DNA of 64,000 nucleotides from an uncultured Cryomorphaceae bacterium (GTDB lineage: Bacteria; Bacteroidota; Bacteroidia; Flavobacteriales; Schleiferiaceae), in NCBI GenBank assembly GCA_937120475.1, contig CAKZJV010000007.1, forward strand, positions 1,132,068 through 1,196,067. The letters are read 5' to 3'. Below are positions 2,546 through 9,994 of the stretch, one piece after another. Each line of letters opens with the position of its first letter. The stretch's first letter is position 1. Below the pieces are notes generated by a model. That model had not been told where the DNA came from, did no database searches, and saw only the letters and a list, made by a program, of their open reading frames with translations. The translations under genes and the position numbers were made by a program.

Positions 2546-3637
2546 CTATACGTTGAAACGGAAATGCATAATATCACCGTCCTGAACCGTGTATTCCTTT
2601 CCTTCTATACCCAGCTTTCCCGAGTCCCGCACAGCACTTTCCGACCCCAGCTCAACGTAATCCTTGTACTTAATAACCTCGGCACGGATAAACCCTTTTT
2701 CAAAATCAGTATGGATAACGCCTGCAGCCTGCGGAGCGGTAAAACCTTTTTGAATGGTCCAGGCGCGTACTTCCTTTTCACCAGCGGTAAAATAGGTTTG
2801 CAGATCCAGTAGGTCATAGGCTGCCCGGATAACCTTATTCACACCCGGTTCATCCAACCCAATGTCTTCAAGAAACATCTGGCGCTCCTCATAATCCTCC
2901 AGCTCGGCAATATCTGCCTCAGTGGCCACCGCCAGGTAAATAACCTCGGCATTTTCCTGAGCTACCGCCTCCTTCACCTTCTTTACCCAATCGTTTCCTT
3001 CCCTGGCAGAAGCCTCATCTACATTACACACGTATAAAATAGGCTTATCCGTTAAAAATTGAATATCCTTCAGCAGGGCCGCCTCATCATTATTACGCTC
3101 AAAAGTCCGTACACTTTTCCCCTCTTCCAGGTAGGATTTTAAACGCTCCAGGGTTTGCACATGCTGTAACTCCACCTTATTGCCGCCCTTAGAGCCTTTT
3201 TTGTGCTTGTCTATCCTTTTTTCAAGGGTTTCAAGGTCTTTAAGTTGAAGTTCTATATCGATAATCTCCTTATCGCGAATGGGGTTAACATCTCCCTCTA
3301 CATGGGTGATATTGTCATTTTCAAAACAGCGCAAAACGTGAATAATGGCACTGCATTCGCGAATGTTTCCCAAAAACTGGTTTCCCAAACCTTCACCTTT
3401 GCTGGCCCCCTTAACCAAACCGGCAATATCCACAATTTCAACCGTGGCCGGAACTACCCTTTGGGGCTTCACCATATCCTCCAGTTTATAGAGGCGCGGA
3501 TCGGGTACCGTTACCGTGCCTACATTGGGCTCAATCGTACAAAAGGGAAAATTGGCCGATTGCGCCTTGGCGTTGGACAGGCAATTGAAAAGAGTGGATT
3601 TACCTACGTTGGGAAGACCTACAATTCCGCACTTCAT
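2546..3637 (-). CDS. ychF: Redox-regulated ATPase YchF (OLA1 family)
   Basis: A 363-aa translation-factor P-loop protein. The N-terminal G1 motif GLPNVGKSTLFNCLS (residues 7-21) is followed by DIAGLVKGASKGEGLGNQFL (switch II/G3). The G4 motif is YVCNVDE instead of NKxD, which explains the ATP preference of the family. A coiled-coil insert lies near residues 130-175. The C-terminal TGS domain ends in the typical GKEYTVQDGDIMHFRFNV. The family binds ribosomes and responds to stress. It is a single-gene unit, and a TATCTTTG box sits 23 bases upstream of the ATG. The length matches the family. Confidence 0.96.
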   Translation of the reverse strand: MKCGIVGLPNVGKSTLFNCLSNAKAQSANFPFCTIEPNVGTVTVPDPRLYKLEDMVKPQRVVPATVEIVDIAGLVKGASKGEGLGNQFLGNIRECSAIIHVLRCFENDNITHVEGDVNPIRDKEIIDIELQLKDLETLEKRIDKHKKGSKGGNKVELQHVQTLERLKSYLEEGKSVRTFERNNDEAALLKDIQFLTDKPILYVCNVDEASAREGNDWVKKVKEAVAQENAEVIYLAVATEADIAELEDYEERQMFLEDIGLDEPGVNKVIRAAYDLLDLQTYFTAGEKEVRAWTIQKGFTAPQAAGVIHTDFEKGFIRAEVIKYKDYVELGSESAVRDSGKLGIEGKEYTVQDGDIMHFRFNV

Positions 3638-3791: not shown

Positions 3792-5555
3792 ATGGAGAAT
3801 TTCATTGTTTCCGCCCGGAAATATCGCCCGCAGAATTTTGAAGAAGTAGTAGGTCAACAACACGTTACCCGCACTTTGCGCAATGCGATCGAGCAAAATC
3901 ATTTGGCTCAGGCCTTGCTGTTTACCGGCCCCCGGGGGGTGGGGAAAACCACCTGTGCCCGTATCCTGGCCCGCATGATCAATAGTGAGGATGGTGACCC
4001 GGTTGACCAGGACTTTGCCTTTAACATATTTGAGTTGGACGCGGCTTCCAACAACTCGGTTGATGATATCCGTAACCTGATAGACCAGGTTCGTTTTGCT
4101 CCACAAGCCGGTCAGTACAAGGTTTATATCATTGATGAGGTACACATGCTTTCACAAGCGGCCTTCAACGCCTTCCTCAAAACCCTGGAAGAACCTCCCA
4201 AACACGCCATTTTTATTCTGGCCACTACCGAAAAGCACAAAATCATTCCAACCATTTTAAGTCGTTGCCAGATTTTCGATTTTAAGCGTATTACGGTGGA
4301 AGATATTGCCGGGCACCTGGAATCGGTTGCCCAACAGGAAAAAGTGGATGCTGAGCCGGAAGCTCTGCATATTATTGCCCAGAAAGCGGATGGAGCCCTG
4401 CGTGATGCGCTTTCTATTTTCGACCGTATCGTGTCGTTTTCCGGTCAAACCATTACCTACCGGGATGTTATTGATAACCTGCGAATACTGGATTACGATT
4501 ATTACTTCCGCACGGTTGACCTTATTAATACTGGCGACTCGGCCGGGCTGCTTTTGCTGTTCAATGAAATTTTGGACATGGGCTTTGACGGCCATCAATT
4601 TATCAACGGGCTGGCCGGTCATTTCAGGGATTTGTTAGTATGTAAAGACCCGCAAACGCTCAGTTTGCTGGAGGTGGCGGAAAGTACTCGCCAACGTTAC
4701 CGTGAACAGGCCCAAAGCCTTAGTATGATTTTCGCTTTAAAAGCTCTGAAAGCTTTAAATGAAGTGGATGTTCGCTACAAGGGAAGTAACAGTCCACGCC
4801 TGTTGGTAGAATTGGTACTGTTGCAACTAGCCAATCCGGAAGGCCAGGGTACCGAAAAAAAAAAGCCTGAACCCAAGGGGCTAAGCACCCCGGCCAAACC
4901 AAAGACCATTTCCCCCGCAGTGGTTTCTGCTCCAAAACAAGAAAAGCCTCCGAAACCACATGCTACCGAGGTATTACAAAGAGAGGTTGAAAAAAGACCT
5001 GCACCCGAAACCAAAAATCTTGAACCTGCTCAGGTAGCTGAGAAAGAAGGTTCGTATTCCTCCCGTCTTAAATCCAGGAGTAAACGCAGCGCATTTTCTA
5101 TTTCCGAAACTGTAGATAAAGAAGCGGTACAAGAGGAGAAAAGTGAAACCGAAGAGGATGCCAACGAAACCAAACCGGGCCTGGCCCGTGAAGATTTTAA
5201 TGAGAATCAATTACTCAACCTTTGGAATGAATATATGACCATGCTTCGCGGCATGCAAAAGCAAAAAATATACGGGAGCCTGAACAATAAAAAGCTGCAC
5301 CTCAAAGAAGGTTTTATGGTGGAGATTGAGTTGGAAAATGAGATTCAGCAATCTTTCTTTGAAGAAGAAAAACGCGACCTGATTCAGTTCCTACGTCAAA
5401 AGCTCAACAACTTTTATATACGTTTTCAGGTTAAAATTAAACCTTCCACACAAAATACCGAGCCCTACAGTGCCGAAGAGAAATTCCAATATATGGTAGC
5501 CAAAAACCCCAACCTGCTGCTGCTCAAACAAAAACTCGATCTTGATATTGAGTAA
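3792..5555 (+). CDS. dnaX: DNA polymerase III subunit tau/gamma (DnaX)
   Basis: The clamp-loader ATPase, 587 aa from ATG 3792 (MENFIVSARKYRPQ); an in-frame TTG/ATG further upstream at 3756 adds residues unlike the family. Walker A is GPRGVGKTT (46-54), Walker B is IIDEVH (113-118), and the sensor region ATTEKHKIIPTILSRCQ is intact. The four-Cys zinc module normally between Walker A and the DAASNNSVDDIR segment is absent and replaced by a short acidic linker. Domain III ends near residue 350 and is followed by a Pro/Lys/Glu-rich linker and a C-terminal tau domain (about 475-587). A run of ten A bases at 4855-4864 lies exactly at the domain III/linker border, with stops just after it in both other frames, so both tau and a short gamma form are plausible. 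Confidence 0.96.
   Translation: MENFIVSARKYRPQNFEEVVGQQHVTRTLRNAIEQNHLAQALLFTGPRGVGKTTCARILARMINSEDGDPVDQDFAFNIFELDAASNNSVDDIRNLIDQVRFAPQAGQYKVYIIDEVHMLSQAAFNAFLKTLEEPPKHAIFILATTEKHKIIPTILSRCQIFDFKRITVEDIAGHLESVAQQEKVDAEPEALHIIAQKADGALRDALSIFDRIVSFSGQTITYRDVIDNLRILDYDYYFRTVDLINTGDSAGLLLLFNEILDMGFDGHQFINGLAGHFRDLLVCKDPQTLSLLEVAESTRQRYREQAQSLSMIFALKALKALNEVDVRYKGSNSPRLLVELVLLQLANPEGQGTEKKKPEPKGLSTPAKPKTISPAVVSAPKQEKPPKPHATEVLQREVEKRPAPETKNLEPAQVAEKEGSYSSRLKSRSKRSAFSISETVDKEAVQEEKSETEEDANETKPGLAREDFNENQLLNLWNEYMTMLRGMQKQKIYGSLNNKKLHLKEGFMVEIELENEIQQSFFEEEKRDLIQFLRQKLNNFYIRFQVKIKPSTQNTEPYSAEEKFQYMVAKNPNLLLLKQKLDLDIE
4855..4864 (+). promoter_or_regulatory. Candidate slippage site in dnaX (A10 run)
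   Basis: The in-frame codons are GAA AAA AAA AAG CCT (Glu355-Lys-Lys-Lys-Pro). Shifting to the -1 frame gives AAA GCC TGA, a stop after one new residue. Shifting to the +1 frame gives AGC CTG AAC CCA AGG GGC TAA, a stop after six. Products would be 359 or 363 aa, against 587 aa for tau. A short possible hairpin (GGGG at 4877-4880 with CCCC at 4888-4891) follows. Known precedents are ribosomal frameshifting in Escherichia coli dnaX and transcriptional slippage on an A9 run in Thermus thermophilus dnaX. Confidence 0.6.
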
Positions 5556-5672: not shown

Positions 5673-7919
<2,247 letters not shown>

Positions 7920-9448: not shown

Positions 9449-9994
9449 ATGAAATACTTTAATCCCTGGCACCATACCCAGCCTAACCATCATGAAGGGC
9501 ACGTAAACGGCATTATCGAAATTCCCAAACACACCCGTGCCAAATATGAACTGGATAAGGATAGCGGCCTGTTAAAACTCGACCGGGTTCTTTATTCGGC
9601 TATGTATTACCCCGCCAACTATGGCTTTATTCCGCAAACCTACTGTGATGATAAGGACCCCCTGGATATCCTGGTGTTATCACAAATTGAAGTGGTTCCC
9701 CTGTGCCTGGTAGAGGCCAAGATCATTGGTGTTATGCGCATGCTGGATAATAATGAGGCTGATGATAAGATTATTGCCGTTGCCGCTGGCGATCCGGCTA
9801 TCAATCACTACAACGATATATCCGAACTTCCGGAACATAACATCCGTGAACTGCGCAGCTTTTTTGAGGACTATAAAAAACTGGAACACAAAGAAGTAAT
9901 CGTGGAAGAATTTCAGGATAAGAACACTGCCATCCATATTTTAAACGAAGCCCTAGAACTATACCGCCAGGAAATTGCCCCGTTTCACAATTAA
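9449..9994 (+). CDS. ppa: Inorganic pyrophosphatase (family I)
   Basis: A 181-aa soluble family I pyrophosphatase that hydrolyses PPi to two phosphates and pulls biosynthetic reactions forward. Signature elements are the [17 protein letters not shown] substrate region, [12 protein letters not shown], the metal-binding Asp cluster [11 protein letters not shown] (family pattern D-x-D-P-x-D), and the later DDKIIAV. The length is normal. It starts at ATG 9449, 2 bases after the M15 peptidase stop, so the two genes probably share the promoter at 8720. Confidence 0.96.

Follow-up and report, generated by a model that had tools for sequence, protein, structure and literature searches.

The question raised by this locus is whether a run of ten adenines (A10) within the dnaX gene of an uncultured Cryomorphaceae bacterium is an accident of a lysine-rich linker, or a programmed site at which a second, shorter clamp-loader protein would be made from the same gene. 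The gene lies within a 64,000-nucleotide stretch of genomic DNA, which was analysed as a whole and is referred to here as the window. The features that bear on the question are as follows (window coordinates).

3792..5555, + strand: dnaX, encoding tau (587 aa), a clamp-loader subunit (NF011531 match and reading of the ORF)
3792..4835, + strand: domains I-III (residues 1-348), common to tau and the predicted short form (TIGR02397, Pfam)
4855..4864, + strand: A10 run, the predicted RNA polymerase slippage site (sequence; kept in relatives)
4859..4865, + strand: A_AAA_AAG heptamer, in frame, at the 3' end of the run; a possible extra -1 ribosomal site
4868..4870, + strand: TGA closing the -1 frame; predicted short form of 359 aa (if the mRNA gains one A)
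4882..4884, + strand: TAA closing the +1 frame, inside CTA AGC; predicted short form of 363 aa (if the mRNA loses one A)
4866..5552, + strand: linker and C-terminal region, present in tau only (sequence; C-terminal matches in relatives)

The start of dnaX was taken as the ATG of 3792-5555; the ORF list begins at a GTG 12 codons upstream. The encoded protein scores 723 bits against the gamma/tau model NCBIfam NF011531 (cut-off 685), its best matches among solved structures are gamma/tau chains (E values of 1e-59 to 1e-63), and its nearest named relatives are mostly Flavobacteriales. The neighbouring genes encode what we take to be a topoisomerase B-type subunit (564-2426, - strand) and a YchF-like GTPase (2546-3637, - strand), and presumably a monomeric isocitrate dehydrogenase (5682-7919, + strand) and an inorganic pyrophosphatase (9449-9994, + strand). 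Domain III ends at about residue 346-348, given that TIGR02397 covers residues 6-346 and Pfam DNA_pol3_gamma3 stops at residue 348. The run occupies codons 355-358 (GAA AAA AAA AAG), in the context TACC GAA AAA AAA AAG CCT GAA, and thus lies just past the end of domain III; an earlier sequence-only reading had put it exactly at that end. Past the run, the -1 frame reads AAA GCC TGA (Lys-Ala-stop), and the +1 frame ends at the TAA listed above. Both stops could be read in the sequence as that earlier account had given them, and its predicted lengths of 587 aa for tau and 359 or 363 aa for the short forms likewise agree with it. Given where domain III ends, either short form would consist of domains I-III and a tail of 11 to 17 residues. 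Across the whole genome (3.65 Mb), there are 13 distinct runs of ten or more adenines (14 overlapping matches), two of which, as checked in 3-kb loci, fall within ORFs of at least 300 aa in the sense orientation, and dnaX is one of the two. The other A10 run is at codon 202 of a 544-aa ORF of the same genome (L163:895-2529; C7 near 639699), which has no Pfam match.

We propose that RNA polymerase would stutter on the A10 run, thereby producing dnaX mRNAs with 9, 10, 11 or more adenines. The unslipped and +3n mRNAs would be translated into tau, while the remaining mRNAs would lead the ribosome to a stop a few codons on, and hence to a gamma-like protein comprising domains I-III and a short tail. 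In E. coli, the tau-specific region binds the helicase and the polymerase; the gamma-like product would therefore be a clamp-loader motor without that region. We put at roughly 0.83 the probability that transcription is programmed to slip at this conserved run. That slippage takes place in the organism from which the window derives, how efficient it would be there, and that the cell produces the short protein and puts it to use, we infer from the DNA.

The closest precedent is dnaX of Thermus thermophilus, in which a run of nine adenines (A9) undergoes transcriptional slippage (PMC1088944, PMC5009743) and stops are found in both alternative frames (PMC5009743). In a large share of genomes, selection against A/T runs likewise becomes visible at a length of nine (PMC1088944). 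The window resembles Thermus in that a single ORF encodes tau, at least nine adenines in a row are located at the gamma/tau boundary, stops follow soon in both non-tau frames, and a short product is predicted from slipped mRNAs. It differs in having A10 rather than A9, and in that one tRNA-Lys was found in its genome, whereas two are reported for Thermus (PMC5009743). The same source mentions a few bacteria in which tau itself seems to need a shift (PMC5009743). Antonov et al. (2013) took shifts in two directions in one gene as a criterion for transcriptional realignment, and found ten adenines at the break in nine of 17 split dnaX genes, for which slippage was predicted (PMC3711429). Relatives described below in which tau lies in the -1 frame look like these two-ORF genes, whereas tau of the window is in frame 0 and is not split. 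The 2013 list covers genes in which the frame has to change, and single-ORF cases would hence be missing from it; its nine A10 species may well include Bacteroidota. Thermus-type slippage and split A10 dnaX genes are therefore already known. In the literature on dnaX slippage and frameshifting that was searched (open papers, in part, without their supplements), we did not find the spread of the device over the present group, the drift of tau among frames, or the replacement of the run by a pseudoknot.

The dnaX loci used for comparison came from the genomes of named species (80 loci) and, for the rest, from searches of genomes of the window's family, order, class and phylum, with one genome per species. 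Of the 295 other genomes in the order, class and phylum sample, 104 were read, drawn from the best-scoring matches listed. The search that yielded the 80 named loci used six seed peptides, one of which was EKKKPEPK, and is thus biased toward the run; the whole-genome sample is free of that bias. The resulting table holds 265 dnaX loci, with the organism's own copies (L081, L206) left out. Four loci (L136, L141, L142, L152) were placed outside the counts owing to a contig end, N's, or an in-frame stop ahead of the longest A run, which leaves 261 usable loci; L142 was restored by hand for the tree. Dereplication at 85% identity of the N domain reduced these to 152 loci. Among the 87 other genomes of the window's family, eight gave no reading of the site because they were fragmentary or had a weak match or none (G001, G012, G044, G059, G070, G072, G076, G085).

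Within the family, 80 dnaX loci were fetched, of which 75 have A10-A13, three have another recoding signal and two are unreadable. The run of at least ten adenines is therefore kept at 75 of the 78 readable loci, and AAG does not as a rule break it; in this respect, the check on relatives that accompanied the sequence-only reading came out in its favour. An estimate that AAG never interrupts the run was circular, the loci having been picked for the run, and was set aside. Among these best-scoring 104 of the 295 genomes, a run of at least nine adenines was found in all 35 loci from other families of the window's order, in 32 of 36 loci from other orders of its class, and in eight of 33 loci from outside the class, these eight coming from five of 21 families. 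Over the dereplicated Bacteroidota loci, which include that best-scoring subset, 121 of 152 have the run, and 92 of these 121 have exactly A10 and 17 have A9. When the count is confined to the loci from whole-genome searches plus the window, the run is present in 65 of 89; for the named loci, it is present in 73 of 80, distributed over Flavobacteriia, Sphingobacteriia, Cytophagia, Chitinophagia, Saprospiria and part of Bacteroidia. Near the end of the domain, the longest stretch of adenines measures 2-7 bases in 38 of the 261 usable loci and 9-13 bases in 223 (exactly A10 in 179), with no locus at eight. Outside the counts, L142 has an A8 further on, within the pseudoknot described below. A run of nine or more occurs elsewhere in the 152 dnaX genes just four times in 258,406 bases, and the length of 9-13 is held across deep branches and in dnaX genes of up to 60% GC. 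Judged from the sequences of its relatives, which keep the run or carry another recoding signal, the A10 run of dnaX is no accident.

The run is not universal, however, being absent from 31 of the 152 dereplicated loci, both Bacteroidaceae loci among them, and rare outside the window's class, so that gamma made by slippage is not needed everywhere. In two Bacteroidaceae and two other Bacteroidales loci (L045, L064, L048, L068), there is no run and tau is a single open frame; in these bacteria gamma may be absent, or produced in another way. A scan for in-frame slippery heptamers in the 36 loci that have neither the run nor the pseudoknot cassette revealed no consistent site. One of these 36 loci, L033, lacks the run in the usual place; an A10 lies some 265 nt beyond it, with stops in the -1 frame after one or two codons, and is possibly a displaced slippage site.

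Two closed off-frames in one gene are, taken alone, weak evidence for recoding, and those of the window carry weight because of a comparative closure test. A frame was counted as closed if it has a stop within 20 nt past the run, and the expectation was obtained by shuffling the next 60 tau codons, where the tau frame is the frame with the longest open stretch past the run. Both non-tau frames are closed in 102 of the 121 run-bearing loci, against 15.6 (sd 3.6) expected, although z-values from such shuffles overstate independence, the loci being related. Where tau is in frame 0, closure is seen for the -1 frame in 87 of 90 loci (41.4 expected) and for the +1 frame in 78 of 90 (26.6 expected); with the whole-genome-search loci only, both are closed in 40 of 48 frame-0 loci (4.5 expected). 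The proposal of the sequence-only reading, that two closed frames favour slippage by RNA polymerase, is thus supported by the relatives. In the runless dereplicated group, which contains one pseudoknot locus (L133), both frames are closed in three of 31 loci (1.7 expected), and the +1 frame alone in 13 of 31 (6.6 expected). The latter likewise exceeds what shuffling gives, which means that the run does not account for all of the +1 excess. Among frame-0 loci with closure within 29 nt, the -1 stops are TGA in 54, TAA in 18 and TAG in 17, and the +1 stops are TAA in 40, TAG in 33 and TGA in eight.

Slippage requires just a run of about nine or more adenines and closed frames, which leaves the frame of tau free to drift, and drift is what we observed. 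In the 121 run-bearing loci, the long open frame past the run is frame 0 in 90, -1 in 29 and +1 in two. For 87 of the 121, a match to the C-terminus of the window's tau was found in that frame (66 in frame 0, 19 in -1 and two in +1), for two in another frame (L061, L134), and for 32 in no frame. A FastTree phylogeny of the N domain has tau changing frame at least 23 times among the run-bearing loci, and no fewer than 13 changes of the -1 label are required by highly supported branches alone; these counts are approximate because the tree was quick and came with a long-branch warning. In L134 and L061, tau seems to shift frame again downstream of the A10, through either a sequencing error or a second break. 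The contigs of L154 and L141 end shortly past the run.

For a -1 shift by the ribosome, a fixed phase and heptamer would be needed, together with stimulators and a stop in the -1 frame only; none of these is the rule here. The phase of the run varies (phase 0 in 15, phase 1 in 74 and phase 2 in 32 of the 121 loci), as does the base directly 3' of it (G in 54, C in 37, T in 30), A_AAA_AAG is in frame in just 36 of the 121, tau is in the +1 frame at some loci, and there is a stop in the +1 frame as well, for which -1 frameshifting has no need. Nor did the 121 loci show an excess of structure past the run (mean z -0.41, versus -0.36 in controls 100 nt further on; z of -2 or lower directly past the run in 12 of 121), or an enrichment of Shine-Dalgarno-like tetramers at -24..-7, which occur in 14 of 121 loci against 0.109 of control windows and are therefore at background. 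A Shine-Dalgarno count with fewer motifs (28 of 121 versus 0.05) was discarded, as it is inflated by GGAG arising from GGA GAA codons that touch the run. For all of these reasons, we favour slippage over a -1 shift. The window itself nevertheless shares with E. coli dnaX, besides the predicted short and long products from one gene, an in-frame heptamer (4859-4865), with a TGA closing the -1 frame one codon on. Its genome has one tRNA-Lys (UUU) among the tRNAs called, which comprise 40 Rfam matches (150 of 252 candidates scored), with ARAGORN calling 39 of those places. A single tRNA-Lys combined with in-frame A_AAA_AAG is the E. coli condition, so some -1 shifting at the window's own heptamer is possible, and -1 is moreover the open frame in 29 of 121 relatives. 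It differs from E. coli in that it has no stem-loop that beats shuffles, the site and the next 59 nt forming a short GGGG/CCCC hairpin whose fold is no better than theirs (z 0.78), and in that its Shine-Dalgarno match is at most partial (AGGG at 4846-4849, noted by eye; none of the counted motifs is found upstream). The relatives that are likely ribosomal shifters have a pseudoknot, in contrast to the A-run loci with no structure excess. Given this lack of structure and of Shine-Dalgarno excess, we rejected a stimulated frameshift of the E. coli type as the main device at the window's site, and consider it unlikely that -1 shifting on the heptamer is what makes gamma here.

Sliding of the ribosome on the poly-A of unslipped mRNA could, in principle, yield both off-frames, being phase-independent and bidirectional, and with E. 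coli ribosomes as few as three AAA lysines were reported to suffice for truncated product (PMC4363877). In the PURE system with E. coli ribosomes, however, the same study describes little truncated product on A9 or A10 and a robust amount on A11, whereas A10 and A9 are the lengths found at 92 and 17 of the 121 loci. On these results, sliding on A10 was rejected, and it strikes us as highly improbable. Even less credible is that the run reflects chance, in the form of a lysine-rich linker with AAA-biased codons or of a tract that is phase-variable at the DNA level, with no programmed product. Lysine codons upstream in the same genes are indeed 69% AAA, and poly-A tracts can mutate in DNA. Against this stand the constant length of the run over deep branches and high-GC genes, its near absence from the rest of these genes, closure of the off-frames far above shuffles, and the split genes with a zero-frame stop right past the run, which would lose tau without recoding. 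Chance lysine richness was rejected on the run length, the closed frames and the drift of tau, and transcriptional slippage is the reading that we retain.

The three same-family loci that lack A10 are L133 (G061, genus g17), L140 (G060, genus g17) and L142 (G037, genus g15). At the place of the run, they have CCA AAA AAG TA(A/G), and the long open frame continues in -1. The A_AAA_AAG is followed by a 6-nt spacer and then by stem 1 of 10-14 bp, the loop of which pairs with sequence 9-10 nt beyond stem 1 to form stem 2. In alignment A1, six stem-2 pairs are standard in all three loci, five of them with changes on both sides, and L133 and L140 differ from each other by compensatory change at two stem-2 pairs. 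A common 6-bp register was found in none of 20,000 shuffles. The whole structure pairs at 98%, and sliding it lowers this to 51% or less, though such a control is tilted in favour of a structure that was drawn from these very sequences. Taken singly, stem 2 arose in two of 2000 shuffles for L142, 185 of 2000 for L133 and 94 of 2000 for L140; fold z-values are -2.4, -3.0 and -7.0 over 50 nt, and -2.2, -1.1 and -5.1 over about 70 nt, for L133, L140 and L142, respectively. The claim of a pseudoknot is thus carried by the shared register and covariation, since singly stem 2 stands out in L142 only. The three cassettes are not independent, given that L133 and L140 are close kin, one of which was dropped at 85% identity. 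On the strength of their sequences, these loci have a -1 ribosomal frameshift cassette with a covarying H-type pseudoknot at the place of the run. They are nearer to the E. coli type than the window is, but in them it is tau, and not gamma, that needs the shift.

All of the 75 other readable loci of the family have the run, and the two pseudoknot rows in the FastTree tree group together. The simplest reading, and the direction that we propose, is that the slippage run was replaced by the frameshift cassette. The exact cassette pattern was sought in 395 genomes of the order, a sample that does not include G061, and was found only in G037 and G060; six matches with one mismatch were obtained, none of them in dnaX. 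A covariance model run with strict filters, and without a positive control, on 395 genomes of the class gave one match, which is not in dnaX; it reported none of the three known cassettes, which were probably absent from the sample, and is therefore weakly informative.

Two kinds of signal at one place argue for selection for two products, and the run in most sampled dnaX genes of the class, the drifting tau frame, the closed other frames and the pseudoknot clade point the same way. We consider it probable, though with less assurance than the slippage site itself, that recoding of dnaX is frame-agnostic in the class to which the window belongs and in a few further families. Slippage would be so efficient there that the DNA frame of tau hardly matters, with tau having drifted among the three frames many times while the others were kept closed, and with one clade of two genera in the window's family having swapped the run for the pseudoknot cassette. 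If so, a translational device would have naturally taken the place of a transcriptional one at a single site of one gene, which would indicate that the short clamp-loader protein is under selection; the importance of the short gamma form was long controversial in E. coli (PMC5009743). Relatives with the run and those with the pseudoknot would, moreover, form clean pairs for comparing polymerase slippage with ribosomal shifting.

Automatic annotation may wrongly label split dnaX genes of this group as broken or truncated. The window's family is probably Schleiferiaceae, since L008, the only named locus from Schleiferiaceae, has a run context nearly identical to that of genus g18 of the window's family. 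Finally, genome G057 has two full-length dnaX genes on different contigs (L137 and L138, with A13 and A11), which represent either two copies or contamination.
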